Positions 31,886 to 53,992 of a DNA stretch of 53,992 bases are shown in pieces. Under the pieces are notes generated by a model. It ran no database searches, was not told where the DNA came from, and saw only the letters and a program-made list of their open reading frames with translations. The position numbers and the translations under genes were made by a program. Position 1 is the stretch's first letter, and each line of letters starts with the position of its first letter. The DNA is taken from positions 1-53,992 of the forward strand of contig CALMZQ010000137.1 in the NCBI GenBank assembly GCA_937870915.1, in the 5' to 3' direction. This stretch comes from an uncultured Ignavibacteria bacterium (GTDB lineage Bacteria; Bacteroidota; Ignavibacteria; Kapaibacteriales; Kapaibacteriaceae).

Positions 31886-32653
31886 CTAGAGCCCCTTCAT
31901 CAGACGAATCCGAGCCCCAAAATTGAGCATTCGCCACGTATCCTGAGTTGATACGCTCAAGAGTGGTATTCCAATAGAGACCGACGGACTGAGATAAAAT
32001 CCGTTCGCTACCGAAATGTTGTATCCGACCTGTGCATAGGGCTCAATCTGGATGCGATTTGCATGGTCGAGGAACGTGTTTCCTAGCTCCTGCTCCTTTG
32101 ACCGCGGATTCTGTGTGAACAGATAGTAGTCAGGCGATATCACCCGTTCCAACTGCGAAAGTGATCCGCCTGCGTAGATATGCAATCGTACTCCCCCACC
32201 AGCCGTAAGGTGTGTGCCAAAGAGCCGGGTTCCGATTCCACCATGCAGAGTGAGATACGTCATCGCCCCCTCTAGGACATATTCGGTTCTAAGTAGCTCA
32301 CCACTCGACAATGGCACCGGAACAGACGGCGTTACAAACAAAGCGTTGATGAGTGTGAATCCTAGGCCGGCCTGAACGGACACACTGGGTGATAGCCATT
32401 GTTCTCCGGCAATGTTGATGGAAAGGGGCAGGCCACTACCGGATTCGTAATCGCAGCATACGATGCCAACTTCTTGTTCAATGTATTCAAGGGAGCCACG
32501 ATGTTGGGTGTAGCCAGAGCCTATCTCAATCCCTACATAACGCTTGGGAATCTGATATGGCACACGTGGTGATGTTTGCCAATCAAATCCCTGTGCTCCG
32601 GCACTAAGGACAATGGAACACATCAAGAACGCTATGGCCACCGATCTCTTCAT
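31886..32653 (-). CDS. Predicted outer-membrane beta-barrel protein
   Basis: A 255-residue protein with a signal peptide (MKRSVAIAFLMCSIVLSAGA) and a series of alternating amphipathic strands (YVGIEIGSGYTQHRG, VSVQAGLGFTLINALF, FYLSPSVSIGIPLL) ending in an aromatic-hydrophobic strand, MLNFGARIRLM. This suggests a small outer-membrane beta-barrel. Its ATG overlaps the stop of the preceding sorted Ig-like protein by 4 bp (ATGA), so the two are coupled. The same pairing of sorted protein and barrel recurs at 41260-43412. Not assigned to a named family. Confidence 0.7.
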   Translation of the reverse strand: MKRSVAIAFLMCSIVLSAGAQGFDWQTSPRVPYQIPKRYVGIEIGSGYTQHRGSLEYIEQEVGIVCCDYESGSGLPLSINIAGEQWLSPSVSVQAGLGFTLINALFVTPSVPVPLSSGELLRTEYVLEGAMTYLTLHGGIGTRLFGTHLTAGGGVRLHIYAGGSLSQLERVISPDYYLFTQNPRSKEQELGNTFLDHANRIQIEPYAQVGYNISVANGFYLSPSVSIGIPLLSVSTQDTWRMLNFGARIRLMKGL

Positions 32654-34923: not shown

Positions 34924-34939
34924 GGTAAGGACCGTGGCC

Positions 34940-37886: not shown

Positions 37887-38003
37887 ATGCGAGCAGTTCC
37901 GTTCTTCGTGGTTAACGATGCATTTAGAAGCGGCGCAATATAGCAAAATGACCCTCCACAGCCGGAGTGAAAGCCATCTTCGTATTCCGTACTTTTACCC
38001 GCT

Positions 38004-40046
38004 ATGGCAGAGAACACCGATAATGCGTCGATATCGTTTCTTGAGAAGCTTCGAAAGGGGCTCCTACGAATGCCGTCCGCTCAAGGACCAGACGCCCTGC
38101 TTGCAAAGGCAGATAGTGAGCTTTCCAGGGTAGAAGATCCGGCAGAACGTGTTCGGATCCGGCATGTACTTGCCCAGTTTCATTCATTACATGCCAACTT
38201 TTCCCAGGCGCACGCCATCCTTGACGCAGCTGATGCTGACTGTTCGGTCGAATCCGATTCTGCGTCTCACACGGCATACGTTAGAGCCACAGTCTATCAT
38301 CGCCAGAACAATTTTGAGGCTGCGCGGGAAACATTAGCCCCGTACCTATCTCAAGATCTTGTTACGTCCGACCTCGAATTGGCAGCACGAGTGCACACTC
38401 TCCATGCCGGCATTCTTGATGCATTGGGAAACCCGGAGGCTGCGCATGATGAGTATCGTATTGCTATCGATCTGCGTGAGCGTTTGGGTGATGCTCGTGG
38501 CATGGCCATCGTGTATTACAACTTTGCCGAGAGCTGCGTTCGGAGAGATGAACACGATGTTGCTCTCGAGTTCTTTGTTCGTGCCTATGACATTGAAAAG
38601 GGGCTAGGTGAACTGGCCAGTCAGGCTCAATCGGCATGTCATATTTCCATTCTTATGGCTCGTAGGGGCGAAAGAGATAGCGCTCTAGAATTTGCCGATG
38701 AGTCGATCAGAGTAGCTACGCAGTCTGCTACGCCAATGATTATTGCCCATGTTATGGCTAACAGAGCCACAACGCTTGAGATCCTTGGCGATTCGATCGG
38801 ACGGGAACGCGCTTTGCTTGAAACGCTAGACTACTTACATGAGTACCCGATCAATGCCATTCTAGGGCCGGTCCTTGGTAACCTTGGCACGATGTACCTC
38901 GGTCGTGGTGAATTCGAAAAAGCGGAAGGTTACCTCCAGCAAGCACTTGAAATGGCTGTGCGAGACGGATTTCAATACAATGAAGGGTTTTGGCTCTTTA
39001 GTTTGGGTAAACTACGATTTGAGACCGGGCGCTTCCCGGAAGCGATCGAATTTCTGCATCGTGCCGTTGCGATCCTTCGCTCAGTAAAGGCCCACGTCTA
39101 TACGCTTGAGGCACTCCACATCCTTGCCCAAGCACATGCACGTAACGAATCTTCGCGCGAGGCATTCGACGCTCTAGCCGAGTGGACGAAACACTATGTA
39201 GACGAACACACGGCTGAGATTGAGAAGAGACTCCACGACATTCAGGAATCTCGATTCCGAGAACGGAAAGAAAAAGAAGAGGAGATCTATCGCCTCCGCA
39301 ATGTTGAACTGTCTCAGGCACTAGAGGACCTCCAGCGTGTGAATGCCGAGTTACGCGAACTTGCCGCAGAAAAAGACGAGTTCATGGCCATAGCCGCTCA
39401 TGACCTTCGCAACCCGCTTGGCGATAGTCGAGGAATGTTGCAAACGATCATCAGTCACTACGATGTTCTAGATAAATCTGATGTGCTCTCACTTTGCCAT
39501 GACCTCCTCACTCTTACAATGAGGATGTCGAATACGGTACACGCATTTCTGGAGATATCACGCACTGACAGACGGTCAACGGGGCTCGTTATTAACCCAC
39601 TTGATCTAACGCTTCTTGCAAAACGAGCGTACGACAGACATACAACTCGCGCTGTTGCTAAATCAATTACGTTACGTATCGAGATTGGTAAGCCCAACGT
39701 ATGGGCAACCGGTGATGCGTCAATTGTTGATGCAATCATCGATAATCTCGTCACAAATTCTTTAAAGTACATCCCAGCCGGCTCTACAATTACACTGAGT
39801 GTAAATGAAGAAGATGGAGCCCCTTTCATTTGTGTTTGCGACAATGGTCCCGGTGTGGACCCAGAAAAACAACATCTCCTGTTTACGAAGTATGCTACTC
39901 TCGGCGCAAAAACAACAGGTGGCGAAGAGTCGCTCGGACTTGGACTCTATCTAGCCCAACGTATGGCTTCGCGCATGGGTGCGCGGATCAGCTACAGAGA
40001 AAACCCCGGCAAAGGGGCTTCCTTTGTACTGCATCTACTGCGGTAA
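38004..40046 (+). CDS. Soluble TPR-containing sensor histidine kinase
   Basis: A 680-residue kinase with no membrane segment or signal peptide. Residues 1-400 are helical tetratricopeptide-type repeats (for example LGNLGTMYLGRGEFEKAEGY and LGKLRFETGRFPEAIEFLHR). A charged coiled coil follows (EKRLHDIQESRFRERKEKEE, about 405-455). The kinase core has the H-box MAIAAHDLRNPLGD (His466), the N-box DNLVTNSLKY, and the G-boxes CDNGPGVD and SLGLGLYLAQRM. It would sense a cytoplasmic signal or a protein partner through the repeats. No response regulator is adjacent, so it is an orphan kinase. Its stop is six bases from the convergent gene at 40053. Confidence 0.93.
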   Translation: MAENTDNASISFLEKLRKGLLRMPSAQGPDALLAKADSELSRVEDPAERVRIRHVLAQFHSLHANFSQAHAILDAADADCSVESDSASHTAYVRATVYHRQNNFEAARETLAPYLSQDLVTSDLELAARVHTLHAGILDALGNPEAAHDEYRIAIDLRERLGDARGMAIVYYNFAESCVRRDEHDVALEFFVRAYDIEKGLGELASQAQSACHISILMARRGERDSALEFADESIRVATQSATPMIIAHVMANRATTLEILGDSIGRERALLETLDYLHEYPINAILGPVLGNLGTMYLGRGEFEKAEGYLQQALEMAVRDGFQYNEGFWLFSLGKLRFETGRFPEAIEFLHRAVAILRSVKAHVYTLEALHILAQAHARNESSREAFDALAEWTKHYVDEHTAEIEKRLHDIQESRFRERKEKEEEIYRLRNVELSQALEDLQRVNAELRELAAEKDEFMAIAAHDLRNPLGDSRGMLQTIISHYDVLDKSDVLSLCHDLLTLTMRMSNTVHAFLEISRTDRRSTGLVINPLDLTLLAKRAYDRHTTRAVAKSITLRIEIGKPNVWATGDASIVDAIIDNLVTNSLKYIPAGSTITLSVNEEDGAPFICVCDNGPGVDPEKQHLLFTKYATLGAKTTGGEESLGLGLYLAQRMASRMGARISYRENPGKGASFVLHLLR

Positions 40047-40052
40047 TTGTTG

Positions 40053-41189
40053 TTAGGTTTTGCGTGCAATCAGCTGCCAGTCTGCACCATCCCACACAAA
40101 GAACAATGCATCACCTTGGTCGGCCTTATCCGACGGCGGCGTGATGGTGATGTTAGCTCCTGTGATCGTAATGCGATCTGGGCCTAAATTTTGCACTACC
40201 ACGATCTGTCCAACAATCGTTCCGTTCGGGAAGGTAACGTTCTTATTGCCGCTGTTATTCGTCACCTTGATATAGGACGCGGAGTTCACTGGGATCTCTG
40301 TATCTCCGGCGGCTACCACGTCTGCAAACTTTGTAAAGGCTTGCACGATCACGGGCGACATAGACGTTACCCGCCAACGTTGTTCAGCTGCAGAATATCG
40401 TAGTCTGATCGATGCCTGAGCCGGGATGTCCAAGTCTGCACCTGTTGCAGTGCGGATCCTTGTTGTATCTACTGATCCTGTGGACTCGTTGGCCAGGGTC
40501 ATTACTTGACCTGATACATTCAGAATCTCAAGTTCCTTGCCGTTCCTACCACCTACGAAGCCGGTAAAGGTCCGTCCGGCAGCCAACGCTGTAGCAAGTC
40601 GAACAAAGCCAGCACGATTTGTATTACCGAAATCGAAGTTATGGTTGACGGCAGCTGCAATTGCTGTTGTATAGTTCAACTCTCGAATGGCCATATCCCC
40701 ATCGATATCGAGGGCTACGTTTGGAGTTGTTGTCCCGATACCAACATTGCCTCCTACAAAGGTTGCGACCGGCATCGTCGAAGATGGCGTGCGCAACACG
40801 GACAGCAACGTGCCCGATGTTGTTGTTTGAAGTTGCAGCTGTGTAGCGGTTGTATCCCACACCAAACCTGACGATCCACGGATCGTGGTGCCATCCGCAT
40901 CGAGATAGCCGATCTGCTGTGGTAGGAGATTCAGAGTAGGCAGTGCGTTGAATGACGTGGACTGCGTCAACCGGTTGTAGACCAGAGCAACACTAGCAGG
41001 CCCTATTGATGGCACAGAGGCAGGAAATGTTAACTGGTATGAGGACGTGAGCGAAGAAGGCGACAACGTTATGGCATTTCCCGTTGTTTCATCCTCAAGC
41101 CTGATCGTGCTGAAAGTCTCAGATGATTGGGCAATTGCCAATATTGGCATTATTGCAACAAGCATTATGGCTAGACTCAGATTATTCAT
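40053..41189 (-). CDS. Secreted tail-fibre-like surface protein, paralogue of 47972-49261
   Basis: A 378-residue exported protein (signal peptide SLAIMLVAIMPILAIAQSSE). Three parts match the protein at 47972-49261: the N-terminal IRLEDETTGNAITL, followed by SYQLTFPASVP; the middle GGNVGIGTTTPNVALDIDGD, a motif typical of tail-fibre and adhesin repeat proteins; and the C-terminal module with SYIKVTNNSGNKNVTFPNG, VVVQNLGPDRITITG and LFFVWDGADWQL. No type IX tail is evident. The upstream 70 bases (41190-41259) are AT-rich, so this gene may have its own promoter although no TAnnTTTG was found there. Likely a surface or extracellular structural protein; function unknown. Confidence 0.75.
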   Translation of the reverse strand: MNNLSLAIMLVAIMPILAIAQSSETFSTIRLEDETTGNAITLSPSSLTSSYQLTFPASVPSIGPASVALVYNRLTQSTSFNALPTLNLLPQQIGYLDADGTTIRGSSGLVWDTTATQLQLQTTTSGTLLSVLRTPSSTMPVATFVGGNVGIGTTTPNVALDIDGDMAIRELNYTTAIAAAVNHNFDFGNTNRAGFVRLATALAAGRTFTGFVGGRNGKELEILNVSGQVMTLANESTGSVDTTRIRTATGADLDIPAQASIRLRYSAAEQRWRVTSMSPVIVQAFTKFADVVAAGDTEIPVNSASYIKVTNNSGNKNVTFPNGTIVGQIVVVQNLGPDRITITGANITITPPSDKADQGDALFFVWDGADWQLIARKT

Positions 41190-41259
41190 TGCTCTTCCAT
41201 GAGTTGTTTTTACTTACGTAATTTTACGATATGATTCGGGTAGTTCATAGTGAAATTTT

Positions 41260-42084
41260 TCACAAACCTACCCGCCAGATAACCCCGCCGCGGAACATCA
41301 AACTATTCCAGGCTGTTGGGTCAGAGACAACCGGGGTAGCCCCTTGAATCAAGATAAAGGGCGAAACAAGCTGACTGGTATAACCAAAAAGTCCCGTCAT
41401 GATATCCGTTCCGAAACCTATCTGGAACCCTACCCGTGGACGCATATCAGGAGTAGTGGCAAACTTGATGCTGGTATTCGGAAATCCCGGTTCTTCCCCC
41501 ACTACCTCATCTGGTGGCAATAGTTCGTGTTGCCAGATATAGGAGTTTGAGCTGAGTGGAAGGTCGAGGAAGGGGCCCCCTATCACAAAAAATCCTCGGC
41601 TGCCAAGACTATACTTGGCAAGGAGCGTTACCGTGCCATAGAGAATGGACGAGTTGGATTCAAACGTGGCATTGTAGGCATAGATGCCATTTGAAACGGG
41701 GGTTGTGGATGTGCTCGTGGCATACCGGTAGTCAACACCCAGATTGAGCATTAGTCCTAGGGGGCTGTTGTAGGATCGGTATTCAATGCTTGGCGCAATA
41801 GCCACACCGTATCCAAATCCACCCTGGGTCTGAGCCGACAGCGTAGGTGCATCAGGTGCCGTGCCACCCACATATTGAACCGTTAATGTGCCAAAGCCCA
41901 TTGCATAGTGTGCTGAGACAGAAGCACCTATCCACCACTCTTCTTTTAGTCGCAGAGTATCGAACGGAATATCAACGCCCTCTGTAGATGAACCGGATAT
42001 CAACTGCGCCTTCACATCAACCGAGATGGCAACGATGAAGCACATCACCAGTACGAGGATGTGATATGGTTGTTTGGTGATCAT
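41260..42084 (-). CDS. Predicted outer-membrane beta-barrel protein in the surface operon
   Basis: A 274-residue protein with a signal peptide (ILVLVMCFIVAISVDVKAQ) and alternating amphipathic strands (WWIGASVSAHYAMGFGTLTV, GYGVAIAPSIEYRSY, LMLNLGVDYRYA, VGFQIGFGTDI) ending with LMFRGGVIWRVGL, a barrel-type terminal strand. It starts with ATGA overlapping the stop of the sorted protein upstream. The arrangement mirrors the pair at 31886-34923. It could be an assembly or anchoring partner, but is not recognisable as PorP/SprF from sequence alone. A 14-base palindrome (41250-41263) overlaps its stop. Confidence 0.7.
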   Translation of the reverse strand: MITKQPYHILVLVMCFIVAISVDVKAQLISGSSTEGVDIPFDTLRLKEEWWIGASVSAHYAMGFGTLTVQYVGGTAPDAPTLSAQTQGGFGYGVAIAPSIEYRSYNSPLGLMLNLGVDYRYATSTSTTPVSNGIYAYNATFESNSSILYGTVTLLAKYSLGSRGFFVIGGPFLDLPLSSNSYIWQHELLPPDEVVGEEPGFPNTSIKFATTPDMRPRVGFQIGFGTDIMTGLFGYTSQLVSPFILIQGATPVVSDPTAWNSLMFRGGVIWRVGL

Positions 42085-43412
42085 CGTATGAGTTGCCCCT
42101 TGAGGACAACACGAGACTGCTCTTCAATGGAAGAGTCGTTAACCGGGATGGCAACAAGCACGATGTTATATAAACCCTGCGAAGCGATTGCCGGAGCACG
42201 GAAATACGCTAAGTAGGCAACACCCTTTGGATAGTCTCTGTCGATGATGGGCGTACCACCTTCGTCTACAAGATTGGCTATGAGCCTTCCACCAAGGTCG
42301 AATACGCTCCCAGTCAAACGAACACGGTCATCAATATTGAACCGTACAGTCGTTCCATTCGAGAATGGGTTCTCCAACAGTACAGCATTAGAGATGATGG
42401 CGTTGGGGACACGGATGAAGATTGTGTCAATGGCAACGGTGTCGCCACCATAATACTGTTGGAATTCACCCATCAGACGATAGGCATACTGTTCGCGACG
42501 GAATTGAACAGAATCGAGATAACCGCTACGTGATTGTGGCCGGAGGCACCTGCACGACCTGAGCGAATTATCGACGTTATAATTCAATCTAGGAAGGGGC
42601 TGAAAAACCAAGTTCGTTGGATCGCGAGGATTCAACAGGGCACGTTCTATCCAATAGCCTTTGTAGCAGTGTTCATCGTTTACATCGAATCCCAACTCAA
42701 CCTGTAGATCTCCAAGATAGGTTCCACGAAAATCGAAGATACCGTTGCAAGAGTCTGGTGGTGGCGGCTCGGAGATGTATCGCACATTGGATCCGAATGG
42801 GACGTTGTCGTGCTTTACATACCACACATTGCGAGTTAACCCAACGCCAGTTACACTATCGTGATCGATCTTAAAAGCCATTGCCAGCTGACGATCGTCT
42901 GCGATGAATGTAACGGTATCGCTCAGGAAGGAACCATCCTTCGTTGAGAGTGTAAAGCGACCAAGAAGCAATGAATCACCTACGTTCGACAAACGTGCAC
43001 AGTCGTCAACGGAATCTGGACACAGGAGCATCACACTCATTCGTTGTGCAAAAACCTCGGGCTCGAGGTGATAGACCGAAGAATTGGCTACGAGATATGG
43101 ACCAAGGGGTGCGAGTTGCGATGAGGCGTTCTCATACGAGAACGAGTGCACTGCCGGATCGATACCGCCTGTCAACGCAAGACTTGGCACCTCAATGCGA
43201 AACGTGCCATTTGCAACATAGTCCCACTGCGGATCCACTTTCTTCAGCCAGATCTCAAATGTTGATGTATCTGGTCGAGGGTCGAGTAAGGGGCGAAGGA
43301 TCACGTGACCCATTGGTGTCTGCGCGTACAGTGGAGTGTATGACAGAACAGCGATCATGACAACCATGAACGCTAGAATGATGCGACGATACCGATCAAC
43401 GCGGGACAACAC
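42081..43412 (-). CDS. Secreted protein with type IX-like sorting tail
   Basis: A 443-residue exported protein (signal segment IILAFMVVMIAVLSYTPLYA). The first part is a beta-rich domain with no recognised family but a STFEIWLKKVDPQWDYVAN segment of the kind found before cohesin-like folds in other secreted proteins. The last 90 residues have the sorting-domain pattern: LLENPFSNGTTVRFNI, LTGSVFDLGGRLIANL, and SQGLYNIVLVAIP. Four cysteines, including CRC, lie in the middle. It starts with GTG at 43412 and overlaps the upstream hemagglutinin-like gene by 17 bp; its stop overlaps the barrel gene start. Confidence 0.72.
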   Translation of the reverse strand: MLSRVDRYRRIILAFMVVMIAVLSYTPLYAQTPMGHVILRPLLDPRPDTSTFEIWLKKVDPQWDYVANGTFRIEVPSLALTGGIDPAVHSFSYENASSQLAPLGPYLVANSSVYHLEPEVFAQRMSVMLLCPDSVDDCARLSNVGDSLLLGRFTLSTKDGSFLSDTVTFIADDRQLAMAFKIDHDSVTGVGLTRNVWYVKHDNVPFGSNVRYISEPPPPDSCNGIFDFRGTYLGDLQVELGFDVNDEHCYKGYWIERALLNPRDPTNLVFQPLPRLNYNVDNSLRSCRCLRPQSRSGYLDSVQFRREQYAYRLMGEFQQYYGGDTVAIDTIFIRVPNAIISNAVLLENPFSNGTTVRFNIDDRVRLTGSVFDLGGRLIANLVDEGGTPIIDRDYPKGVAYLAYFRAPAIASQGLYNIVLVAIPVNDSSIEEQSRVVLKGQLIR

Positions 43413-45513
43413 TGTTGTCTCTCAGGCGATTGTTCCAGGAATAGTTCCAGTCGAGAGTGGTTACTACTCCGTCGAGGTTGGTGTCGAAAATGCTGTATTG
43501 ATCGATTAGCTGCCGATTGATCCAAATGCGATCCATGTCACCACGGTCAATTGATTCCGCTACTTGAATGTTAGGATCACCACCATCGGTATTCCCTGCA
43601 GCAAGGCCGAAGAACCGTCTACCTTCATAGGTGGAGATAAGGCGTAGTGATGCCGCGCCCCCTACTAGCCCAGTTCCTTTGGTGAAGTCGACTGTGGTCC
43701 GAACGTTCGACCTGTCTACAAGCACCGGATCTTCTGTTATGATCGAAAGGTGGTTGCGGTGACGTACAGCCAAGTGGTAGAGTCCGGCAGAGATTCCCGA
43801 GATAACGCGTGGGCGCAGTGTAAACGGATCGAGGAGTCTACCGTCCTTTGTAAGCAAGACAGTTTCGATCAACACCGGAGTGCCATTGGAGAAAGCATCG
43901 TTACGGAATTCAACGGTTACCCAGTCAACGATACTGTCGCCGATGGCGATGGCTGTATCACCAATGAGCACGTTATCGAGTGAGTACGGATAGATGCGAG
44001 GAGCAACGGTTGGGACAAGGCCACGTTGTGCAAGGTCGGTTGACATTATAGGCGCTATCGAATCACCTGCAGAACGCATTGCACCTTCCAAAAGTACGCG
44101 CGCATTCAAGACCCAGATCGGTCCGGTTGAAAGACCGATAGCATAATCACCACTTGCACGAATAAACTGCGACGATGAATATTGCCACATGCCGAACGGA
44201 TCGTTACTACGAGTTGTTGGAGTACGCGAGAATCCATACGGTTGATAGCTACCGTCGATGTACCGAAGGAGGACTAGTTGGTCTTCCCTGCCTCTGAGTA
44301 TCGGAATTGTTTCGATAACATTGGGCGATTCGAAAGTTGTATCGTTCCGAGCACGCCAGCCCCATTCCATCGTCATGTCATAGGTGCTGTCAGGCACCGT
44401 ATCACCCACATTGGTCAATGCCGTGAACTGCATAAAGCGATCGACCTTGAACAAGATGTCGTCAAGGGGCAAAGCAGTTGTCTTTGGCTTCATCCGCAAA
44501 CGAATACTACGTACAGCCCCTTGATCGTTAGTACGTGGAATATTCAACGAGGCGAACTCGTGATTCATCCTCATTGGACGGCCGACCACGAGATTCGTGC
44601 GCTCCATGGTGCCATTGATCTCAGGCCAACGAGGACCATAGACCGGGTCCTTCTGCGAGGTGTAGTAGAGCGTGTGACGTGTGGTGTCATCCTCTTCCGT
44701 GAAGAGGTGAGCGTTGATAATGAGTGAGTCGTTCACCCATACATCACGCGTAAGAAACACTCCGGCCCTTGCATCCTGGACAAGATCAGCCGTTGCAGAT
44801 TGCGACCTCATGAACTCCGGTCCCGTGTAGATCACAGAGTCGCCGTAATACCGAACGTTAATGCGCTGATCAATAGAAAGTTCATCGTTGAGGGAGCCCC
44901 CTGCCTGACGCCATACCCAGGCATCACGTTGCATGGCTAGGTTGTCCTGCGAGGTAACGTTGAGTTGTCCGCGTTGCAAATCCACACGTTCTGCGATGCG
45001 GAGGCCAACACCACGCGTTACTACTACTCCACTGTCGTTAATAACTTCAAGGATCGGAATGAGTCCACGTCCGGCAATATCCTGAATGGAATCACCGCGG
45101 AGTTTCATTGTTCCGTCTCTACGTCCGGGGTTGATCAGTCCTTCGTGACGTAATGTGCCATTGGTCTCGATCCAAGTAAGGGGCGAGAGTTCAAACACTA
45201 CCGTCGTATCTGCAGACCAGAAGAGTTTCGTGGAGACAACAGGTCGAGCTGCGTCGATCATCATCTTTCGCGACCGACCGTTAAATCTGACTTCTTCGTA
45301 GGTGGTATGTGCCACGATCTGAGTGTCGGCATTGTCACGCAGATACTCAACAATGCTCCTAATCGTATCCTGTGCGATGCGCGCATCGCCATAGATCTTC
45401 ACCGTGCCCGAGTTATGGATCACGCCATCACTAATGAGCGCACTTGGCAATTGAGCAAAGGCAACGCCGCTCATGAAGACAAAGATTGCGATATGGAGAA
45501 CGATCCGTATCAC
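43396..45513 (-). CDS. Large secreted hemagglutinin-type protein with dockerin-like end
   Basis: A 705-residue exported protein (signal peptide HIAIFVFMSGVAFAQ). The N-terminal third is a repeated-strand region (ISDGVIHNSGTVKIYGDARI). The C-terminal half follows a layout common in Bacteroidota surface proteins: VLLEGAMRSAG, then SIVDWVTVEFRND, LLTKDGRLLDPF, LAVRHRNHLSIIT, and a calcium-binding-like FDTNLDGVVTTLDWNYSWNN, ending NSVVPR. The end resembles a dockerin/EF-hand pair and could bind a partner or calcium. A GTG start at 45513 overlaps the upstream stop (GTGA). No classic sorting tail is seen. Confidence 0.75.
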   Translation of the reverse strand: MIRIVLHIAIFVFMSGVAFAQLPSALISDGVIHNSGTVKIYGDARIAQDTIRSIVEYLRDNADTQIVAHTTYEEVRFNGRSRKMMIDAARPVVSTKLFWSADTTVVFELSPLTWIETNGTLRHEGLINPGRRDGTMKLRGDSIQDIAGRGLIPILEVINDSGVVVTRGVGLRIAERVDLQRGQLNVTSQDNLAMQRDAWVWRQAGGSLNDELSIDQRINVRYYGDSVIYTGPEFMRSQSATADLVQDARAGVFLTRDVWVNDSLIINAHLFTEEDDTTRHTLYYTSQKDPVYGPRWPEINGTMERTNLVVGRPMRMNHEFASLNIPRTNDQGAVRSIRLRMKPKTTALPLDDILFKVDRFMQFTALTNVGDTVPDSTYDMTMEWGWRARNDTTFESPNVIETIPILRGREDQLVLLRYIDGSYQPYGFSRTPTTRSNDPFGMWQYSSSQFIRASGDYAIGLSTGPIWVLNARVLLEGAMRSAGDSIAPIMSTDLAQRGLVPTVAPRIYPYSLDNVLIGDTAIAIGDSIVDWVTVEFRNDAFSNGTPVLIETVLLTKDGRLLDPFTLRPRVISGISAGLYHLAVRHRNHLSIITEDPVLVDRSNVRTTVDFTKGTGLVGGAASLRLISTYEGRRFFGLAAGNTDGGDPNIQVAESIDRGDMDRIWINRQLIDQYSIFDTNLDGVVTTLDWNYSWNNRLRDNSVVPR

Positions 45514-47585
45514 GGTATACCGATTTGTAGAACGCCGCCGTTATGTGCTGTTGCACCAAGTGTGAGTGTAAGGTTCGGTGTTATGAATGTTGAGCCTTGA
45601 TATACAACAAGTCCGGCATCAAGGGGCAAGGCCGTAAGATCTTGCACATCAACCGGTACGAGTGTGGTACCAACCCTGTTGGCGACCAGGGCAACCCTTC
45701 TATCCGGCACAAGCGAGAATGTGTTGAACGTTCCGGTGCTACCAAAGGTGAGAGCCGTATTGGGACTTGTACCAAGGACAACATTAGTTGCCAGACTGTC
45801 CGGATAGGCCTCCGGAACGGCATAGTTATCACTCGCGCGAACATATCCTGTATGTACCGTGAAACCGTCGATGATAACTCGATCGATCGGTTCCGGTTCT
45901 CGCGCTTCGTCCCACGTAAACGGATTGCTCCAACGACCGGTTGCCACGGCCTTTAGAACATCTCGGCTTGCACGGAGCAAGAGGTCGTTGTTGTTATCAA
46001 GACGAAGATTGTCAGCACCGGCATCCTGAATACCAAAGAGTTCTACGTAACCCAGACCTGTACCGCCACCAACAGGCTTGCGGAAGTACGTTGGCGGGAC
46101 GGTGGGCGTAAGCTTAATCGCACGTTCATTCGGAGGGCCATAGGCGTTATACATCTTCATCAAACGCTCAGCTGTTTCGGGCGCCCACGTAGTAGGAATG
46201 TCCGTGGCTTTATACGCTGCGCGGACCGTTGCTTGCCATGCACCTACATAACTAACCGTGATCTTGCGAAAAACGTCAGTCGTTGGGTCGTAAGCATTCG
46301 GTCGGGTGATCGGTCGCACATCCATGGTAAGTTCTTGAGGTACCGTGATGTACTTCATGAACGTGTGTTCGTTGTTAAACCGATACGGAACATTGGTATC
46401 TGCACCGGCAAGCACTCTACGGAACGAACCAACAACCTCGGCGTCGTTAAAGTAGAACGCCTCGCCAAGAGTGAGACTCATCCTGTGTGGAACCATTACC
46501 ACGTCCGTGTCGTGGACGGATAACGTAGACGATACGAACACGTCTCCGTTCGATGTCTTGGTGCTCTGAGCTGTGCGGAGATGACCATACGGATGACTTG
46601 CAGACGTGGCCTGCATTACCTGAGGCTGTTGCGTTCCGTTGTAATTCACTATCGATGATGTATCAAACACTGCATTGATAAGCGTTGGAAGCTGGTTCAC
46701 ATAGAGGCCCAATACATCAAGCCGTGTTGAGTCGCCCATGAACAACTGCGCTGAATCATTAGACCGCAAAAGAAGGTTTGCAGCAGGCATCACCACAACG
46801 GTGTCTGCATCATCCGGAACAACGAACTGGCCATACTCTACTTCTAGGTCAGCATATAACTCGCTGATATCCCAACCGGATGTGAGCGACCCCTTATTTC
46901 TGATGCGAATAGGAGCACGCGAAAAAGATCTCGAGCCCCAGTACATATCTCCGTTGACCAAGAACTCGCTGAATTGGTCGCTATTGAATACGCCCTCCAT
47001 GCGAATCTCATCACTATCGCGTACAACCTTAGGTGAGAAGAGCAGCGTGAGATTGTTGTACCTGTTCACGGTACCACTCAATCCGTTTTCCTGTGTCACA
47101 GTCTGCTGCAAGGAACCATCGTAAAAAAACGTCCCGCGGTAGGTGCGAGGTCCACTAACGGTTATGGTGTAATCCTTCCCCACGAATACAGAGTCCGGCA
47201 CAAACTTGCCGGCAGAATCAGCAACTTCAAGATCCGTATAGAAACGAGCCTGGAGGTTCTGTGTATCGAGTGTTCGTTTATAGCGAACCAAACCCGGAAC
47301 ACGCCATGACCTATCCTGACCAAAAGCCGTTGATAACGATGGATAGCCATCGAGATCTGTGAACATGTTATCCGTACCCGTGAACTCCACAACATTGTTT
47401 GTGAATTCCGTGTATGGGGCAGCGTTCTTAAACTTTCCTGTATCACTCTTAAATCTGATGGTACCAGTGTTACGCACCGTGCCCATACCCCGGTTCTCGA
47501 GGTGTTGCGCTAAGGCAACATTCCCCACCGCCGAGGTGAGGAATATTGCAACAATTACCACGATATGGTGAAGGAAGGGGCTCAT
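45510..47585 (-). CDS. Large secreted beta-rich surface protein
   Basis: A 691-residue exported protein (signal peptide HIVVIVAIFLTSAVGNVALA). It opens with the same style as its two neighbours, LENRGMGTVRNTGTIRFKSD, a short strand-turn pattern also seen in 43396-45513 (VIHNSGTVKIYGDARI) and 47582-47968 (LVNRGAVIHIKEGALVHV). The remainder is beta-rich with no assigned family. The segment ATGRWSNPFTWDEAREPEPI, then DRVIIDGFTV, resembles the G.W-type autotransporter-like beta-helix entry found in Bacteroidota secreted proteins. It overlaps the neighbours by 4 bp on both sides (ATGA and GTGA). Confidence 0.72.
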   Translation of the reverse strand: MSPFLHHIVVIVAIFLTSAVGNVALAQHLENRGMGTVRNTGTIRFKSDTGKFKNAAPYTEFTNNVVEFTGTDNMFTDLDGYPSLSTAFGQDRSWRVPGLVRYKRTLDTQNLQARFYTDLEVADSAGKFVPDSVFVGKDYTITVSGPRTYRGTFFYDGSLQQTVTQENGLSGTVNRYNNLTLLFSPKVVRDSDEIRMEGVFNSDQFSEFLVNGDMYWGSRSFSRAPIRIRNKGSLTSGWDISELYADLEVEYGQFVVPDDADTVVVMPAANLLLRSNDSAQLFMGDSTRLDVLGLYVNQLPTLINAVFDTSSIVNYNGTQQPQVMQATSASHPYGHLRTAQSTKTSNGDVFVSSTLSVHDTDVVMVPHRMSLTLGEAFYFNDAEVVGSFRRVLAGADTNVPYRFNNEHTFMKYITVPQELTMDVRPITRPNAYDPTTDVFRKITVSYVGAWQATVRAAYKATDIPTTWAPETAERLMKMYNAYGPPNERAIKLTPTVPPTYFRKPVGGGTGLGYVELFGIQDAGADNLRLDNNNDLLLRASRDVLKAVATGRWSNPFTWDEAREPEPIDRVIIDGFTVHTGYVRASDNYAVPEAYPDSLATNVVLGTSPNTALTFGSTGTFNTFSLVPDRRVALVANRVGTTLVPVDVQDLTALPLDAGLVVYQGSTFITPNLTLTLGATAHNGGVLQIGIP

Positions 47586-47968
47586 GGTTGACCGATATTG
47601 ATCTCTCCATCGTTGTTGAGATCACCATCGTTATAGATCGTACCATAGACGTTCATCACACCCGGATCGTATCGCCAGCACACACCATCAAGTCCGATAG
47701 TGAGGTTTTGCGTTACTGTAACCTGACTATCCTTGAGCATGTACAGGCCACCAAAGAAGATCCTTACGTCACCGTTGAACTCTACTCTTGCAGAATCATA
47801 CACGCGGATCTCTCCTTCGCGGTTCTCTGAGGTGCCGTTAACGTGTACGAGTGCACCTTCCTTGATGTGGATCACTGCACCACGATTGACAAGTGTCTGC
47901 CCCGATGCCTTAGTCCCCAAAAGGGTGAGCACCACAAGTATGACCGTTATCGTGATGTACCAACGCAT
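47582..47968 (-). CDS. Small secreted protein with dockerin-like end
   Basis: A 128-residue exported protein (signal peptide TVILVVLTLLGTKASG). The mature part is a short-strand repeat region (LVNRGAVIHIKEGALVHVNG, IRVYDSARVEFNGDVRIFFG) and ends with NDGDLNNDGEINIG, a calcium-loop or dockerin-like pattern at the very C-terminus. It looks like a miniature of the two larger proteins that follow in the operon. ATG at 47968, three bases after the upstream stop; ATGA overlap with the downstream gene. Confidence 0.72.
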   Translation of the reverse strand: MRWYITITVILVVLTLLGTKASGQTLVNRGAVIHIKEGALVHVNGTSENREGEIRVYDSARVEFNGDVRIFFGGLYMLKDSQVTVTQNLTIGLDGVCWRYDPGVMNVYGTIYNDGDLNNDGEINIGQP

Positions 47969-47971
47969 TCA

Positions 47972-49261
47972 CTACGACTTTGCAGAAACAGTTTGCCACT
48001 TTGCACTGTCCCAGACCATGAAGATGGCCTGTCCCGGTTGAATTGTTGCGTCAGCGGCAGCAACCTCAACATTAGTACCGGTAATCCGAATGTAATACAA
48101 CGACGTTGTGTTGTTTTGAATGATCAATACCTGACCAGTTGCAACCCCATTCTCCAACGTGATATCCTTATTGGCATCCGTGTTCGTCACCTTGATATAC
48201 GAAGCGGTTGCCGTTGGGAGAACAGTAGCCGTTCCACCTACGTTTGCTTCCGTAAGCGGATAGCCCGTGAAGTTCAGAGGAGACACAGCACCAACATACC
48301 AGCGCGAATCAATCCCTGAATAGTGCACGGTAACTGTGGAATACGACGGGATCGTAATGGCATCACCGCCTGGCGTGATGAATCGATTTGTAGCAGTACT
48401 GCCTGCATTCTGATTTGAGATCGTTAACGGTTGCGACGAAGCATTGAGCAATGTGATGGTCTTACCTGCAACACCACCGGCGAAGCCAGTGAATGTGAAC
48501 GGAGCCGTTTGTGTACCACCGATGCGAACAAGGGCAGCCTTGTTCCCTGTGCCGGTGAAATCCATGTTGTTGTTGGTGGCAGACAGCGTTGTGGTATAGC
48601 TGAATTCGGTATAGGACATATCACCGTTAATCTCTACGGTTGCAACCGGAGTGGTGGTACCTATGCCAACATTGCCGCCACTGAACGTAGCAGCATAGTT
48701 ATTCGTACCACCTGTGGCAACGATATCAAGACCAACGTTTGTACCTACCCATGAACCGGTAGAGCTGATCTGTAGTCCGCGCTTTGTAGCGGATGCTCCT
48801 GCGTTTAAGGCAACGTTGGTAAGTGTTAGTGCTGTTACGTTTACACTGAACGATCCCGCCTTTGAAATCGAAAGAAGGGGCGAAGAACTGGTGCCGTTTG
48901 CGAGCGTCAGGGTCCGCGCAGTTTCATCCCACAAGAAATCGGTCGAGGACGAAACCTCATCATTGGTTTTGAAATATGCCACTCCGGGAGTTGTCCCTGT
49001 AACGAGTGGAATCGTAGCCCATGACAACCCTGATCCACTTCCGGATACCGTTAACGCACGCGATTGCCCAACGGCCAGCGTGGGTACACTGGACGGGAAG
49101 GTTAGCGTATAGGCCGATGTACCGGCCGCGGGTCTGAGCTCGATCGTAGCATTCGTCGTTTCATCCTCGAGCTTGATGCCGTAGAATGTTTCAACGGATT
49201 GTGCCATCATGGCTGCCGAAGCAAAACCAAGGATGACAAGAGTGGTGATGATGCGGACCAT
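47972..49261 (-). CDS. Secreted tail-fibre-like surface protein, paralogue of 40053-41189
   Basis: A 429-residue exported protein (signal peptide RIITTLVILGFASAAMMAQ). It shares the N-terminal IKLEDETTNATIEL motif, the middle GGNVGIGTTTPVATVEINGD, and the C-terminal module (SYIKVTNTDANKDITLENG, IFMVWDSAKWQTV) with the protein at 40053. The DNA between is low-complexity Thr/Ser-rich. The ATG at 49261 has a perfect AAGGAGG five bases upstream, so the TTG at 49276 is rejected. Probably a repeat-built extracellular structural or adhesive protein; no phage genes accompany it. Confidence 0.77.
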   Translation of the reverse strand: MVRIITTLVILGFASAAMMAQSVETFYGIKLEDETTNATIELRPAAGTSAYTLTFPSSVPTLAVGQSRALTVSGSGSGLSWATIPLVTGTTPGVAYFKTNDEVSSSTDFLWDETARTLTLANGTSSSPLLSISKAGSFSVNVTALTLTNVALNAGASATKRGLQISSTGSWVGTNVGLDIVATGGTNNYAATFSGGNVGIGTTTPVATVEINGDMSYTEFSYTTTLSATNNNMDFTGTGNKAALVRIGGTQTAPFTFTGFAGGVAGKTITLLNASSQPLTISNQNAGSTATNRFITPGGDAITIPSYSTVTVHYSGIDSRWYVGAVSPLNFTGYPLTEANVGGTATVLPTATASYIKVTNTDANKDITLENGVATGQVLIIQNNTTSLYYIRITGTNVEVAAADATIQPGQAIFMVWDSAKWQTVSAKS

Positions 49262-49284
49262 GAAGGCCTCCTTCAATAAACCCG

Positions 49285-50769
49285 TTAATTGTTACGACGT
49301 GAAATTTCTAGCCACGTCGTTGTTGTAGCGTCCCACACAAAGGTGATGGTGTCATCGTTCTGAGGGAGGAAATTGCCGGAAAGCTGAAACTCATCTCCAC
49401 CACCGGCTCCATCTGCAATACTCACTCCATTGCCGGCAGCTGCCCCAATGACCCGTACGATAAGTACCGTCCCATTGGAATATCCCACCGGCGCTACAAA
49501 GGTCACAGGAGCTGCACCGGGTGCAACTGTTGAGGTGATCCTCAGGTAGGTAACACCCAGATTGATGTTGATGGCCGTGGCTCCGGCAACTACTGCATTT
49601 TGGACAATTGGAGCCCCCTCATCGTTTTGCCACTGTGTTGTAGCGTCTGTTCCGGCTACCGATGTGATCTTGAGCACCTGCCCTACAGTACCCACAGCAG
49701 TAGGCAACGTGTATACATTGTCGGCTGCCATTACACCAGCCCGGAAAGCGGCAAAGTTTGCCCCTGCTGCAGGATAGGTAGCAGTGGCATTAGGCTCGAG
49801 GAAGATCAATCGAGAAGCCGTGCTATTGGCATTGGTAAGAAGGACGTCCGCATTATGCAAAAAGGCAGAGTTACCGGCAGTTACGCTGAATGCCGTGAGT
49901 GTACCAGACCAAATGAGCGTATTACTGCTATTCACCGTTAGTCCACGACCACCCAAGACCACGCTATTGCTGCTTGGTACGTTGTGATTATTGCCAGAGA
50001 GAATCACGCTGGCATCACCATCGATCTGAAGATCTTCGCCAGTGACGATCACAGAACCATCGCCTGTAACAATGGAGTTATCTCCATTGAGAATTGCTGA
50101 GCGTGTTCCGGAGACTTCATTCTCTTCGCCATTGATTACAGTTGAATAGTTTCCGGAGACCTCATTCTCCTTGCCGTTAAGAACAAGTGAGTAGTTAGCA
50201 CTCGCTAACTGGTCCTCACCATTTCCTATAAATGCGTAGTCCGAAGTCGATCGGTTTGTCTTTCCACCAATCGTCAACGAATAGTCTGCAGATGCCGTAT
50301 TATTCTCACCGGTAAAGATCCCGGAATAGTTACCGGAAGCCGTTTGTGTTGCCACGGATCGTCTACTTTGAGCATCAAATGCCCCATTGCCAGGAACACC
50401 CTGTACACCACTGATGAAGGGTGTTCTGCGTCGAATATTCAGATCTCCCGTTGTTTCTTCTTCAAAGACCAACGGAATATTCAATGCGGGAGCAATGATC
50501 CAGTCAAGTGTAGCCGTTGTACCTGCAATGGCCGTCACCTGCAACACCGCATCCACGGCCGGAGCCGGAGTTGCCGGCAAGAGGATACTGTAACTCTGGA
50601 GTTGTGTTGCGGCACCTTGAGGGGCAATGAGGACAGTGTTCTTTGTACCGCCCGCTACTCCCCCATCGTTAAGGATAAGATTGCGTCCACTCACATCGCC
50701 AAGTTGCTGCCCATACATCGATGCACATGCAGCTATTAGGACGGTCGATATGGTCAAGGAGATCTTCAT
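49285..50769 (-). CDS. Secreted beta-roll repeat protein (YadA-head-like)
   Basis: A 494-residue exported protein (signal SLTISTVLIAACASMYGQQ). A central block, about residues 140-280, repeats a 14- to 15-residue unit of the type YS-x-x-x-x-G-x-x-N-x-x-S-G (for example YSLVLNGKENEVSGNYSTVI), the pattern of trimeric-autotransporter head beta-rolls. Before it is IPLVFEEETTGDLNIRRRTP, related to the EDETTG motif of the paralogues; after it comes a C-terminal module ending FVWDATTTTWLEI, again as in 40053 and 47972. No YadA membrane anchor is present. The start shares one base with the upstream stop (TGATG). Confidence 0.77.
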   Translation of the reverse strand: MKISLTISTVLIAACASMYGQQLGDVSGRNLILNDGGVAGGTKNTVLIAPQGAATQLQSYSILLPATPAPAVDAVLQVTAIAGTTATLDWIIAPALNIPLVFEEETTGDLNIRRRTPFISGVQGVPGNGAFDAQSRRSVATQTASGNYSGIFTGENNTASADYSLTIGGKTNRSTSDYAFIGNGEDQLASANYSLVLNGKENEVSGNYSTVINGEENEVSGTRSAILNGDNSIVTGDGSVIVTGEDLQIDGDASVILSGNNHNVPSSNSVVLGGRGLTVNSSNTLIWSGTLTAFSVTAGNSAFLHNADVLLTNANSTASRLIFLEPNATATYPAAGANFAAFRAGVMAADNVYTLPTAVGTVGQVLKITSVAGTDATTQWQNDEGAPIVQNAVVAGATAININLGVTYLRITSTVAPGAAPVTFVAPVGYSNGTVLIVRVIGAAAGNGVSIADGAGGGDEFQLSGNFLPQNDDTITFVWDATTTTWLEISRRNN

Positions 50770-53024
50770 CAGTTCGTCATCCGTGTTGCCTTGATAAACG
50801 AGCCTTGTAGGATCCGGATCTGATTGCCAGCGGTTGTCGTTGCCGCCTGCATCTGAATGGTACCATCTAGTGCGCCGATAATGAGGAGCCCCTTTACATG
50901 CACAGACATATCCGTACCAAAGGCTGTTGTATTGGTAGGTATGTCTGTGATGGCCGTACCACTTCCCGTAACTGACACCGGAGCTACACTAGCACCTGCG
51001 TTGCCAAATGCACTCCAACGAATGCTGAGTGTGTTGGTTGTTACGAATGCTATCTGGAGATCTGCACCGGCGTTGAGTCCATCATAGGCAATCAGCGCTT
51101 CAAACTCATAGACCCGACCGGCAATGAGTCCGGTGAGCACAAGGTCCGTGACGTTGGCTAATGCATTAACGGCAAATGTTTGGTCGGCCGTTACGTAGGC
51201 AAACTCCGGCGCAGGTGCAGGGGGCTCAGGGGACCATGCCAGCGTTGCTGTTGTACCTGCAACGGAGAGAATGCGAAGGGCTGCACCGGTTGCACCTATA
51301 GCGTCCGGTAGGATATAGTCGTGCGTTGTAACGGTGGCTGGTGCCCTCATCGCCAGAGTACCTGCAACAGAACCTACAAAGATCTGCGAGCCACTAACTC
51401 GAGAGTCATACATGTACGTTGTGTTGAGATTAGAGGCACCCACGAATTCAGATGCGAGTGCGGCGGGCTGATCAAGGAGTGTGGATCCAAGATAGACGTC
51501 GGCATCATTTGCACTTGATACAACAAGTGGGAAGAGCTCGCCGGTATTTCCGCTCGTTGAGAATCTACCTGCAATACCAAGCGATCCAATGGCTGCGGTT
51601 GCATTTACATCTCCAAGAACACCATAGGCTGTTCCGCCTGAACCGCGCGAGTAGAATTCACCACCTATACGTGTGCGGGCTCCGGCAAAAGTTCCAACAC
51701 TAACGCCAACGCCTGTTGCAGTTGAATTTGGTGTGACATTCAATCCGATGCTGCTCATCGTTATATCAATACCCGTACTAGGAGGATTGAATGATGCCAC
51801 CCCGCCGATGCGAATACCGGTTCCAGTACCAGCTGCTGCCGTACCAATGAGCACGCCAGCATCGTTTGAACCCGTTGCGCCAATGTTACGAACCACGAGA
51901 CCGCTCGATGTTGTTGTGGCAGTCATGTCGATATCTATAGCTCTCCCAGATGTTGCCGGAAGATTAGTGATCAACATGCGCGAGTTAGCCAAAGGCGTTA
52001 GTGTACCGGACGTGATTGAACCATCAGCACTAACCGTAAATGGTTGGTTCAGTCCAGAAGCGTTGTACCGAAGGAAATACCTGTTCCCAGCACCAGTTGG
52101 GATGTTGTTTGCATTAAATGCTGCAACATTGTTCAACGTCCCGGCGGGTGTACCCATATGGAAGCCAAAGAGGTCGGTGACTGTTCCAGCGCCAGGAAGT
52201 TCAGCTCTAAACTGATAGAGTGTAGAAACGGTGTTATTCAAGGCACCTGATTGTCGTTCGGACCAATACCCGGTTATTGAGTTCACAGTAGCGGCGTCTG
52301 TTGCGATCCATTGGAAGTAGTCACCAACAAGATCGTTGTAGGAGTTCCCTGCCCCGCGCTGCATGGAAAGCTGAGTCCAGTTGCTATACAACGTTCCTGT
52401 TTGCGCTGCACCGCCGGGACCTCCCGTGCCCCAGTCGATTGCGTTGATGAAGCCCCTTGTATTATCCTGTGCAACGGGATAACCAGTAGAACTCTGGAAA
52501 CTCATACCGAGACGTAATGCAGAGTACGATCCGTCCAGCGTTGTTGGACGTGTTACGTCAAGTGCACCATTGAACTCCTGATTCACACGAAGTCGAATCT
52601 CATTATTCGATCGAAGGATGAGATCCATCGCATCCGTTGTTCCGAGGAAGTTCGTTACGTCGCTGGTTCCAGTATTACCTGTGAGCAGCCAATTGCTGCC
52701 TGCTACCCACGTCGGGACCCCTGCTACAACAGTCAACACTGTGTTATTTGCTCCAGGAGGTAGCCACGACAACGTAGATGCACTGCCTGTGACGCTGCTG
52801 CTTAGCAATGAACCGGTTACTCCAACATCGGGAGGGAGGACCAGATACCATGGCGTAGCAGGAGGAACGGCAGAATTAGGGAAGAGTGATGTTCTTCCAT
52901 TAGTTGCATTGCGCAGGACGAGAGAATCCGTGAGCGTTCCTTGAGCAGAAGCCGTAGCCGCACCTCCATAGAGAAGCACGGATGCGACCAAGAGTAGAAG
53001 GCAATATCGTAGTGACTTCATCAT
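50769..53024 (-). CDS. Large secreted tail-fibre-like surface protein
   Basis: A 751-residue exported protein (signal RYCLLLLVASVLLYGGAATA). It is Gly/Thr/Ser/Asn-rich and contains WLLTGNTGTSDVTNFLGTTD, then AMDLILRSNNEIRLRV, a tail-fibre-type motif common in Bacteroidota adhesin-like proteins. Later segments (YILPDAIGATGAALRIL, SVAGTTATLAWSP) match the N-terminal strand motifs of the protein at 49285 (VLQVTAIAGTTATLDW). A final beta domain ends ILQGSFIKATRMTN. No catalytic or sorting domain is visible. It is joined to both neighbours by overlaps of 1 and 4 bp. Confidence 0.75.
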   Translation of the reverse strand: MMKSLRYCLLLLVASVLLYGGAATASAQGTLTDSLVLRNATNGRTSLFPNSAVPPATPWYLVLPPDVGVTGSLLSSSVTGSASTLSWLPPGANNTVLTVVAGVPTWVAGSNWLLTGNTGTSDVTNFLGTTDAMDLILRSNNEIRLRVNQEFNGALDVTRPTTLDGSYSALRLGMSFQSSTGYPVAQDNTRGFINAIDWGTGGPGGAAQTGTLYSNWTQLSMQRGAGNSYNDLVGDYFQWIATDAATVNSITGYWSERQSGALNNTVSTLYQFRAELPGAGTVTDLFGFHMGTPAGTLNNVAAFNANNIPTGAGNRYFLRYNASGLNQPFTVSADGSITSGTLTPLANSRMLITNLPATSGRAIDIDMTATTTSSGLVVRNIGATGSNDAGVLIGTAAAGTGTGIRIGGVASFNPPSTGIDITMSSIGLNVTPNSTATGVGVSVGTFAGARTRIGGEFYSRGSGGTAYGVLGDVNATAAIGSLGIAGRFSTSGNTGELFPLVVSSANDADVYLGSTLLDQPAALASEFVGASNLNTTYMYDSRVSGSQIFVGSVAGTLAMRAPATVTTHDYILPDAIGATGAALRILSVAGTTATLAWSPEPPAPAPEFAYVTADQTFAVNALANVTDLVLTGLIAGRVYEFEALIAYDGLNAGADLQIAFVTTNTLSIRWSAFGNAGASVAPVSVTGSGTAITDIPTNTTAFGTDMSVHVKGLLIIGALDGTIQMQAATTTAGNQIRILQGSFIKATRMTN

Positions 53025-53992
53025 GGATTAATGATCATCCAATGCAGGCTGAATGTTGCGTCAACTGTTGCCGACGTGACAACCGTGATCTGGTTCGCCC
53101 CGGCATCCACATTTGTAACCATGGCGTGTACAGCTGCACCTGTTGGACCGAAGACAGTAACATTGATCGTTGCACCGGCAATCAAATCAAATGTACCTGT
53201 TGAAATCACATGAGATGCACTGGCACCAGCCGGGGTGAAGATACCTCTTCCAATTCCGAGGATCTGAAGGGCGTCTGCAGTTGAACGTCGACGTACATCA
53301 CCAGAATTGTCGGCCGTAACAATTCCTTCCGCCACGATCGGATCCGCTGAAGCCGCCGACAACGAACCCGCGCGGATGTTCTCAACACCCGGCGTACCAC
53401 TCACGGTAAAGATGCCTGTGCCTGATGGAGTTATGGTAACAGCACTATTTACTCCGCCCGTGAGAAGCAATGTTGTGTTCGCTCCACCATCAGACGTGAA
53501 CGACAGATTCGAAGCGTCGATGTTCACAAAACGATTTGTGAGGAACGGACTATCTGTGTTGGCCGCTCCACCAAGACGATAGGCATTGGTTGTGTACACA
53601 ATACCTTCTTGGGCAGATCCGGCAATCGGCGAACGTCGGACATTATTCGATGCATCGATCGTGAGGAAGTCTGTGGCTGCTACGCCAACGTCTACACCAT
53701 TCAGGACGATGTTCCCTGCAGCCGATGCTGTCAGGATCACGCCGCTGGCTGCTCCACCTGTTACCACGAGGGGTACTTCTGCGCCGCCGTTAGCTGTGAA
53801 TGAAAGATCCGAAGCATCTACATTCACGAAACGATTTGCGAGGAATGGATTGTCTGTGTTGGCTGCTCCGCCGAGTCTATAGGCACCTGTTGTGAAGACA
53901 ATGCCTTCTTGTGCTGTACCGCTCAATGTAGAGCGACGTACTTCATTCGTAGCGGTGATCGTTAGGATCTCTGTTGGGGCAACTTCTGCGTC
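53021..53992 (-). CDS. Repeat-containing surface protein, 3' part (5' end outside window)
   Basis: The frame is open to the window edge, so the protein continues beyond; the TTG at 53926 is internal. The visible 323 residues hold two near-identical units of 100 residues, each with an NxVRRS segment, GTAQEGIV or GSAQEGIV, YRLGGAANTD and NRFVN(V/I)DAS, plus a third diverged copy (DNSGDVRRRSTADALQILG). A beta-rich C-terminal domain follows. No signal peptide is visible because the N-terminus is missing. It is the most upstream visible gene of the surface operon. Likely an extracellular repeat adhesin or fibre; the total repeat number cannot be known from here. Confidence 0.8.
   Translation of the reverse strand, partial: DAEVAPTEILTITATNEVRRSTLSGTAQEGIVFTTGAYRLGGAANTDNPFLANRFVNVDASDLSFTANGGAEVPLVVTGGAASGVILTASAAGNIVLNGVDVGVAATDFLTIDASNNVRRSPIAGSAQEGIVYTTNAYRLGGAANTDSPFLTNRFVNIDASNLSFTSDGGANTTLLLTGGVNSAVTITPSGTGIFTVSGTPGVENIRAGSLSAASADPIVAEGIVTADNSGDVRRRSTADALQILGIGRGIFTPAGASASHVISTGTFDLIAGATINVTVFGPTGAAVHAMVTNVDAGANQITVVTSATVDATFSLHWMIINP
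53324..53992 (-). repeat. In-frame tandem repeat, 300-bp unit
   Basis: Two complete in-frame units, about 53624-53923 and 53324-53623, repeat with a 100-codon period, and a further partial copy reaches the window end. The amino-acid match is strong for the first 50 residues of each unit and falls off after. Such repeats can change number by recombination. Confidence 0.8.

Follow-up and report, generated by a model that had tools for sequence, protein, structure and literature searches.

What kind of structure, if any, do ten closely packed genes for secreted proteins encode in a genome of the order Kapaibacteriales, and do these genes belong together? The window, i.e., the whole stretch of DNA analysed, is one entire contig of 53,992 bases, on which the ten genes A to J all lie on the minus strand from position 53992 down to 40053 (Table 1). 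The spacings from A to I are, in order, -4, -1, 8, 3, -4, -4, -17, and -4 bases; eight of the nine spacings thus lie within -17 to +8, and only the one between I and J, at 70 bases, is longer. These coordinates and spacings bear out the tight same-strand run described in an earlier note made from the sequence alone. Gene A is open at the contig end. Because the window is the entire contig, the first genes of the operon are cut off and the start of A is absent. The block is flanked at 32650-37946 by genes that we read as the NADH dehydrogenase subunit genes nuoL, nuoM, and nuoN. Neither tRNA nor Rfam matches were found in the window, and scans for promoters and terminators returned fewer sites than in shuffled sequence.

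Table 1. Genes of the run (A-J) and the convergent kinase gene K in the window
Gene	Product	Position	Strand	Basis
A	Repeat-bearing fibre-like protein, 5' end lost	53021..53992	-	Relatives in L039, L042
B	Fibre-like secreted protein, 751 aa	50769..53024	-	Partial relatives, hydropathy
C	Fibre-like, YadA/UspA1-type beta-roll head	49285..50769	-	3pr7_A, PF21300
D	Tail-fibre-like, phage depolymerase C-terminal domain	47972..49276	-	PF25692
E	Probable beta-helix cap protein, 128 aa	47582..47968	-	Separate gene in 21/58 loci
F	Beta-helix/beta-sandwich/beta-helix (predicted), block signature	45510..47585	-	Model pLDDT 93.4; 48/60 genomes
G	F-related N-terminal half and dockerin-like EF-hand end	43396..45513	-	Profile match E 1.2e-15
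H	Cohesin fold, FN3-like and T9SS sorting-domain fold (predicted)	42081..43412	-	Model pLDDT 92.2
I	Probable outer-membrane beta-barrel, by family	41260..42084	-	OMP_b-brl_2 in 7/36 members
J	Another fibre of the D type, encoded after I	40053..41189	-	PF25692
K	Convergently encoded TPR histidine kinase, perhaps an accessory regulator	38004..40046	+	Domains; relatives beside cluster

Secretion signals had been claimed for nearly all of the proteins. For the nine complete genes, B to J, the claim holds by a hydropathy check alone: each encodes a hydrophobic N-terminal stretch of the signal-peptide type (best 11-residue Kyte-Doolittle mean, 2.25-3.47; 3.26 for the hydrophobic core of H), the start of A being missing. 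In most of B-J (window positions 40053-53026), a glutamine directly follows the likely signal-peptide cleavage site, as in the Bacteroidetes Q-rule (PMC5837995). No catalytic or transposase family scored above the Pfam cut-off among the ten genes, in agreement with the claimed absence of enzymes and transposases. The search against PHROGs at E up to 0.1 returned only two weak matches, both for J, and a phage remnant was rejected on these grounds.

The proposal had been made to depend on gene order in relatives, and this order is conserved: F-G-H is present in all ten families sampled (in f7, I does not adjoin H), in a survey whose profiles may include fused members (fusion was also evident with queries from the window). 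With the window's own genome counted, F was detected in 48 of 60 genomes from this order, which cover 27 of 28 genera. We assessed synteny in 58 loci, namely the window's own and 57 from a pattern-based scan of genome contigs, all located through F, and the counts are therefore conditional on F. Six of the loci end before G, leaving 52 that are assessable for the F-G pair. F and G are adjacent or fused in 51 of them: 41 adjacent, nine fused, and one (L081) where, in our judgement, an over-long frame start masks the adjacency; G is missing next to F in one locus, L109. G adjoins H in 48 of 50 loci. H adjoins I in 33 of 45, with one intervening gene in four more, and eight have no I near H, six of which carry a fused F-G; H is absent from two loci with fused F-G. 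By contrast with this internal order, neither nuoL/M/N nor the kinase K was found near the block in any of ten loci outside the window's own family f1 (L047-L056).

Among 34 genomes of the order, F matched 27, including a fragment in G024, and G also matched 27. Outside the order, partial matches to G were found in 42 of 361 genomes of a phylum sample, covering at most 247 of 697 positions, 24 of them via the C-terminal domain by our own count, and partial relatives of F in 8 of 163 other members of the class (best E 9.1e-41). An F-like frame of 713 aa within the class but outside the order (G526:C185:1434-2702) possibly belongs to a distant sister system, and the C-terminal domain of G also occurs within a 6,239-aa open frame (G025:C112:11817-12470). 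Since the gene order is conserved in relatives, the run is beyond chance. The block is a genuine unit, retained across most of the order as sampled, and consists of variable fibres and a conserved base: F, G, H, and in most cases I, preceded by E or a giant protein. The idea of one surface system thus gains from the conserved order and from the block-wise absence described below, whereas a set of ten fixed parts is not seen, the base being conserved and the fibres varying.

Where the block is absent, it is absent as a whole. Beside the fibre run in related genomes lies a gene that we take to be pth, encoding peptidyl-tRNA hydrolase. It adjoins the first fibre gene in four of six f1 genomes, lies beyond one further fibre-like frame in L140, and was not found in L141. 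In five cluster-less genomes nuoM and pth are 80-515 bases apart with no matches to A-K between them, the longest gap (L156) containing an unmatched 124-aa frame. The fibre D was found in six of seven cluster-bearing genomes, G017 being the one in which it was not detected, and in none of seven cluster-less genomes, and none of 11 cluster-less genomes has a full-length H. G058, scored as being without F, has H, and its F miss may reflect an assembly gap. A 48-position F-like fragment with a stop (G024:C1:974468-974617), in a genome otherwise without F, is perhaps a remnant of loss.

The tree of F+G+H and the NuoM tree both place the window with G007, G002, and G004, the split of this group from other genera having support of 100 and 70. 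The window's nearest NuoM relatives, G003 and G010, are without F. With the window among its genus mates in either tree, loss looks like the cause of the absences, and separate losses would be the simplest reading. An acquisition of the block by the window's genus through horizontal transfer was rejected, as the F+G+H tree unites the window with G007, G002, and G004. Enforcing this grouping, the only constraint compared, leaves the likelihood unchanged; the window's F shares 58-61% identity with F of other genera (five genomes) versus 55% with that of G007.

The genes ahead of the base encode fibre-like proteins and vary between genomes, with four frames in the fibre run of G007 and nine in that of G012, both of f1 and judged fibre-like by eye. 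Relatives of A occur in L039 (303 aa) and L042 (301 aa), and the clusters of L039, L040, L043, and L045 contain partial relatives of B. The YadA-head-like protein reported earlier is C, whose residues 144-302 match the head of UspA1 (3pr7_A, E 8.3e-10), with PF21300 at 30.8 bits against a cut-off of 30. PF25692, a phage depolymerase C-terminal beta-sandwich, is carried by both D (E 6.9e-17) and J (E 1.5e-11), which share 34% identity over 413 columns. Together with the UspA1 head it provides the sole hints suggesting a trimeric assembly of the fibres. Elsewhere in the window's own genome, there is a weak D-like piece (G000:C189:49159-49653, E 1.2e-4). The Pfam scan found no sorting domain in A-D or J, nor did a second family-model search in B, C, and D. 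C resembles the trimeric autotransporter adhesins UspA1/YadA in its head but has no YadA-type anchor barrel (Pfam, E up to 1), and a classical trimeric autotransporter was rejected for this reason. The Bdellovibrio MAT superfamily, in the part of PMC10769870 cited here, likewise comprises tail-fibre-like, mosaic surface proteins with signal peptides, a conserved domain of about 130 aa behind them, and diverse tips. Unlike these, the window's fibres have no S74 domain in Pfam and are encoded with a conserved base; B, C, and D gave no match to MAT structures by phmmer against the PDB.

Next to the fibres lie the candidates for a stalk. Five loci of other families have a giant protein of 3,474-4,840 aa before F in the place of E, with a response regulator between the giant and F in L144 and L145. 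At their last residues, all five giants align to the end of the E profile, one at only 3 bits, and in four of the five the N-terminus matches that of E; the scores are low throughout, and stretches from the interior of the giants reach up to 9.4 bits. On these matches, E as a caps-only version of the giant would be plausible. GEVED was found in both giants scanned. For the predicted model of F, the best VIA-align match is tapirin (Z 14.0, 183 aligned), with tailspikes and Ag43 lower, and Foldseek returned nothing at E up to 0.001; the modelled similarity is to a common fold and shows no function. The N-terminal half of G matches F over 322 columns in a profile comparison from which fused proteins were excluded.

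Dockerin-like ends had been described for several proteins of the run. The description fits G only; E has a C-terminal D-N-DG motif in the window, but its acids are not kept in relatives. At an E threshold of 0.1, 8 of 40 G members matched Dockerin_1 (lowest E 1.8e-5), and the G of L088 reached 25.3 bits against a cut-off of 22.9. By a pattern of our own, the second EF loop fits in 34 of the 40 members, the first in 20, and both in 17. In the window's G, the second loop fits and the first does not, and Pfam finds no dockerin. The G profile searched against the PDB gave two dockerins among four matches listed, at the non-significant E of 0.2 and 1. Counts of the dockerin family PF00404 (5 of 16 whole genomes) were too insensitive; two of eight matches are G by position, and the cluster-less G024 also matched. 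By its sequence, then, the end of G is dockerin-like and unevenly kept.

A possible counterpart is encoded by the adjacent gene H. With a pLDDT of 92.2 and a pTM of 0.66, the domain folds of the H model are firmer than their arrangement. It is predicted to comprise a cohesin fold at about residues 33-220, an FN3-like domain at 222-337, and a T9SS sorting-domain fold at 337-443. VIA-align ranks cohesins and fibronectin modules top, with cohesin-containing entries accounting for 14 of 50 matches listed, on about residues 30-220 (best Z 10.9, rmsd 3.1-3.4, 132-139 aligned). In a plain Foldseek search, other Ig-like/FN3 proteins stand above cohesins, the first of which is at rank 44, and a cohesin-like fold need not mean dockerin binding. 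The C-terminal part of PorU (6za2_A, residues 1055-1157) fits H 337-443 with Z 10.1, 92 aligned, and an rmsd of 2.3, a match whose weight is limited by how common Ig-like folds are. TIGR04183, the type A sorting domain, matched 20 of 44 H members with E no higher than 0.1 (lowest 5.2e-6), and the window's H gave no HMM match for its sorting domain. The type B sorting domain is absent from the 11 families matched by the 44 members. The part of the H profile beyond position 212, FN3-like and sorting, has at least 4 to 23 matches in each genome, a count that takes in any ortholog present; the cohesin part was not reached by any partial match among the matches listed. SprA_N is present in 59 of the 60 genomes, own included (G000:C221, 2276-aa frame).

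Gene I, judged by its family, probably encodes an outer-membrane barrel: OMP_b-brl_2 matches seven of 36 members (best E 7.1e-8). An OmpA domain is found in 27 of the 36, equal to the count of long members (442-518 aa), and nine f1 members have 253-283 aa. The window's I has no OmpA domain and no Pfam, NCBIfam, or PDB match. PorP/SprF was not matched at E up to 1 by the window's I or at 0.01 by the 36 members. The OmpA part of I in L091 aligns to the PorE model, below cut-off and among many OmpA families. A SprB/SprF system was rejected, as there is neither a PorP/SprF nor a type B match.

Two described systems come close to this arrangement. PMC12618676, in the part cited here, proposes a single anchored complex of an exported adhesin, the shuttle PorP, and the peptidoglycan-binding PorE. 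Such PorP/SprF shuttles (PG1035-PorP-PorE; F. johnsoniae operons) resemble the present block in that a T9SS-exported protein stands beside an outer-membrane partner, and PorE, the proposed anchor, has its likeness in the OmpA domain of I. They differ in that H looks type A, not type B, that a putative barrel and an OmpA domain are here in one chain, that cohesin, dockerin-like, and fibre parts are added, and that I lacks a PorP/SprF match. The cited part of PMC8542988 describes a scaffoldin-like protein of Ca. Stygibacter with tandem cohesins and a C-terminal attachment tail, for which T9SS is cited. It shares with H a cohesin and a surface-attachment domain in one protein, and has dockerin partners; those are mainly enzymes of a cellulosome-like complex, whereas here they would be a beta-helix protein and fibres. 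We recognised no published description of such a system in the openly licensed PMC literature, which is weak evidence of absence.

By analogy with these two systems, H would be an exported, anchored socket and G its plug, and an architecture of the block along these lines is plausible. We tentatively favour, at a confidence just short of even, one surface-fibre system in which H would cross the outer membrane by T9SS via its predicted C-terminal sorting domain and stay at the surface. I may hold H at the outer membrane and, in most relatives, grip peptidoglycan through the OmpA domain. The cohesin-fold domain of H would bind the dockerin-like end of G as a putative pair, and G would form a stalk with the beta-helix F and E, or with the giant in the place of E in some families. 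The interchangeable tail-fibre-like proteins A-D and J could then serve as contact tips for adhesion. Of this scheme, the gene order and its conservation, the block-wise absence, the predicted folds of H and F, and SprA_N in the genomes are observed, whereas we infer the order of assembly, the barrel fold of I and its part as the holder of H, H-G binding, the exit of the fibres, and adhesion as the role. Speaking against the scheme are the poor dockerin fit of the window's G, the low Foldseek rank of cohesins for H, the lack of family-model matches in the window for I and for the sorting domain of H, the loci without I or H, the fibres without a sorting domain, the cluster-bearing G017 without a detected D, and the partial F relatives outside the order.

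Genes for signalling accompany many of the loci. By our own count over the 58 loci, several of which are too short to judge, a NarL-type regulator is present in 10, a single receiver in 11, a CHASE-PAS-type kinase relative in 16, and a TPR kinase in eight, besides further weaker matches. K itself is absent between I and nuoM in L043, and its linkage is not strict. Four loci have, by similarity, a WD40 protein separating H from I, and L124 is a fifth locus with one, placed after H. The loci L103, L116, L123, L124, and L133 have a secreted protein of 631-650 aa after H; both proteins scanned, those of L123 and L133, proved to have WD40 repeats, and that of L133 has a sorting-domain match of 25.8 against a cut-off of 27.

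The same genes could be read differently. They might encode independent adhesins and a beta-helix coat that are merely co-transcribed, regulated together and lost together, with no cohesin-dockerin joint and no complex. The weakness of the dockerin signal and the variable number of fibres would fit such an assortment, as would the matches to parts of G beyond the order, in 42 of 361 genomes, 24 of which match through a C-terminal domain that is accordingly not block-specific. Tight spacings, an F-G-H order held over ten families, the fusion of F and G in nine of 58 loci, and a cohesin fold and a dockerin-like end encoded in adjacent genes all argue against it, and we consider it unlikely, though a serious competitor.

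A filament sheath or S-layer-like coat made of the giants, with E in their place in the window and the fibres as a minor component, appears improbable to us: the giants of 3,474-4,840 aa in five loci and the predicted beta-helix of F point toward it, but E has just 128 aa in the window, and the fibre run amounts to between four (G007) and nine (G012) frames by eye. It is also very improbable that the base relays engagement of the fibres to the linked two-component genes as a contact sensor. Such genes do stand beside many of the 58 loci, yet their types differ between families, the cluster of G007 (L082) has no such match at its side, and they may merely regulate the operon. An extension of the favoured surface-fibre system is a candidate organelle ancestral to Kapaibacteriales, in which the T9SS-exported cohesin would carry the dockerin-bearing stalk and the fibres through T9SS as bound cargo. 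Docking to H would thereby allow the export of proteins without a sorting signal of their own. We regard this extension as doubtful.

The block may thus build surface fibres that can be exchanged on a base in the outer membrane, which would combine known parts in a new way. If true, it would be a characteristic surface machine for the almost uncharacterised order Kapaibacteriales, with variable tips that resemble a fibre-swapping recognition system. It would also raise the testable question of whether a cohesin-dockerin joint can anchor, or even co-export, large fibres that carry no T9SS signal.
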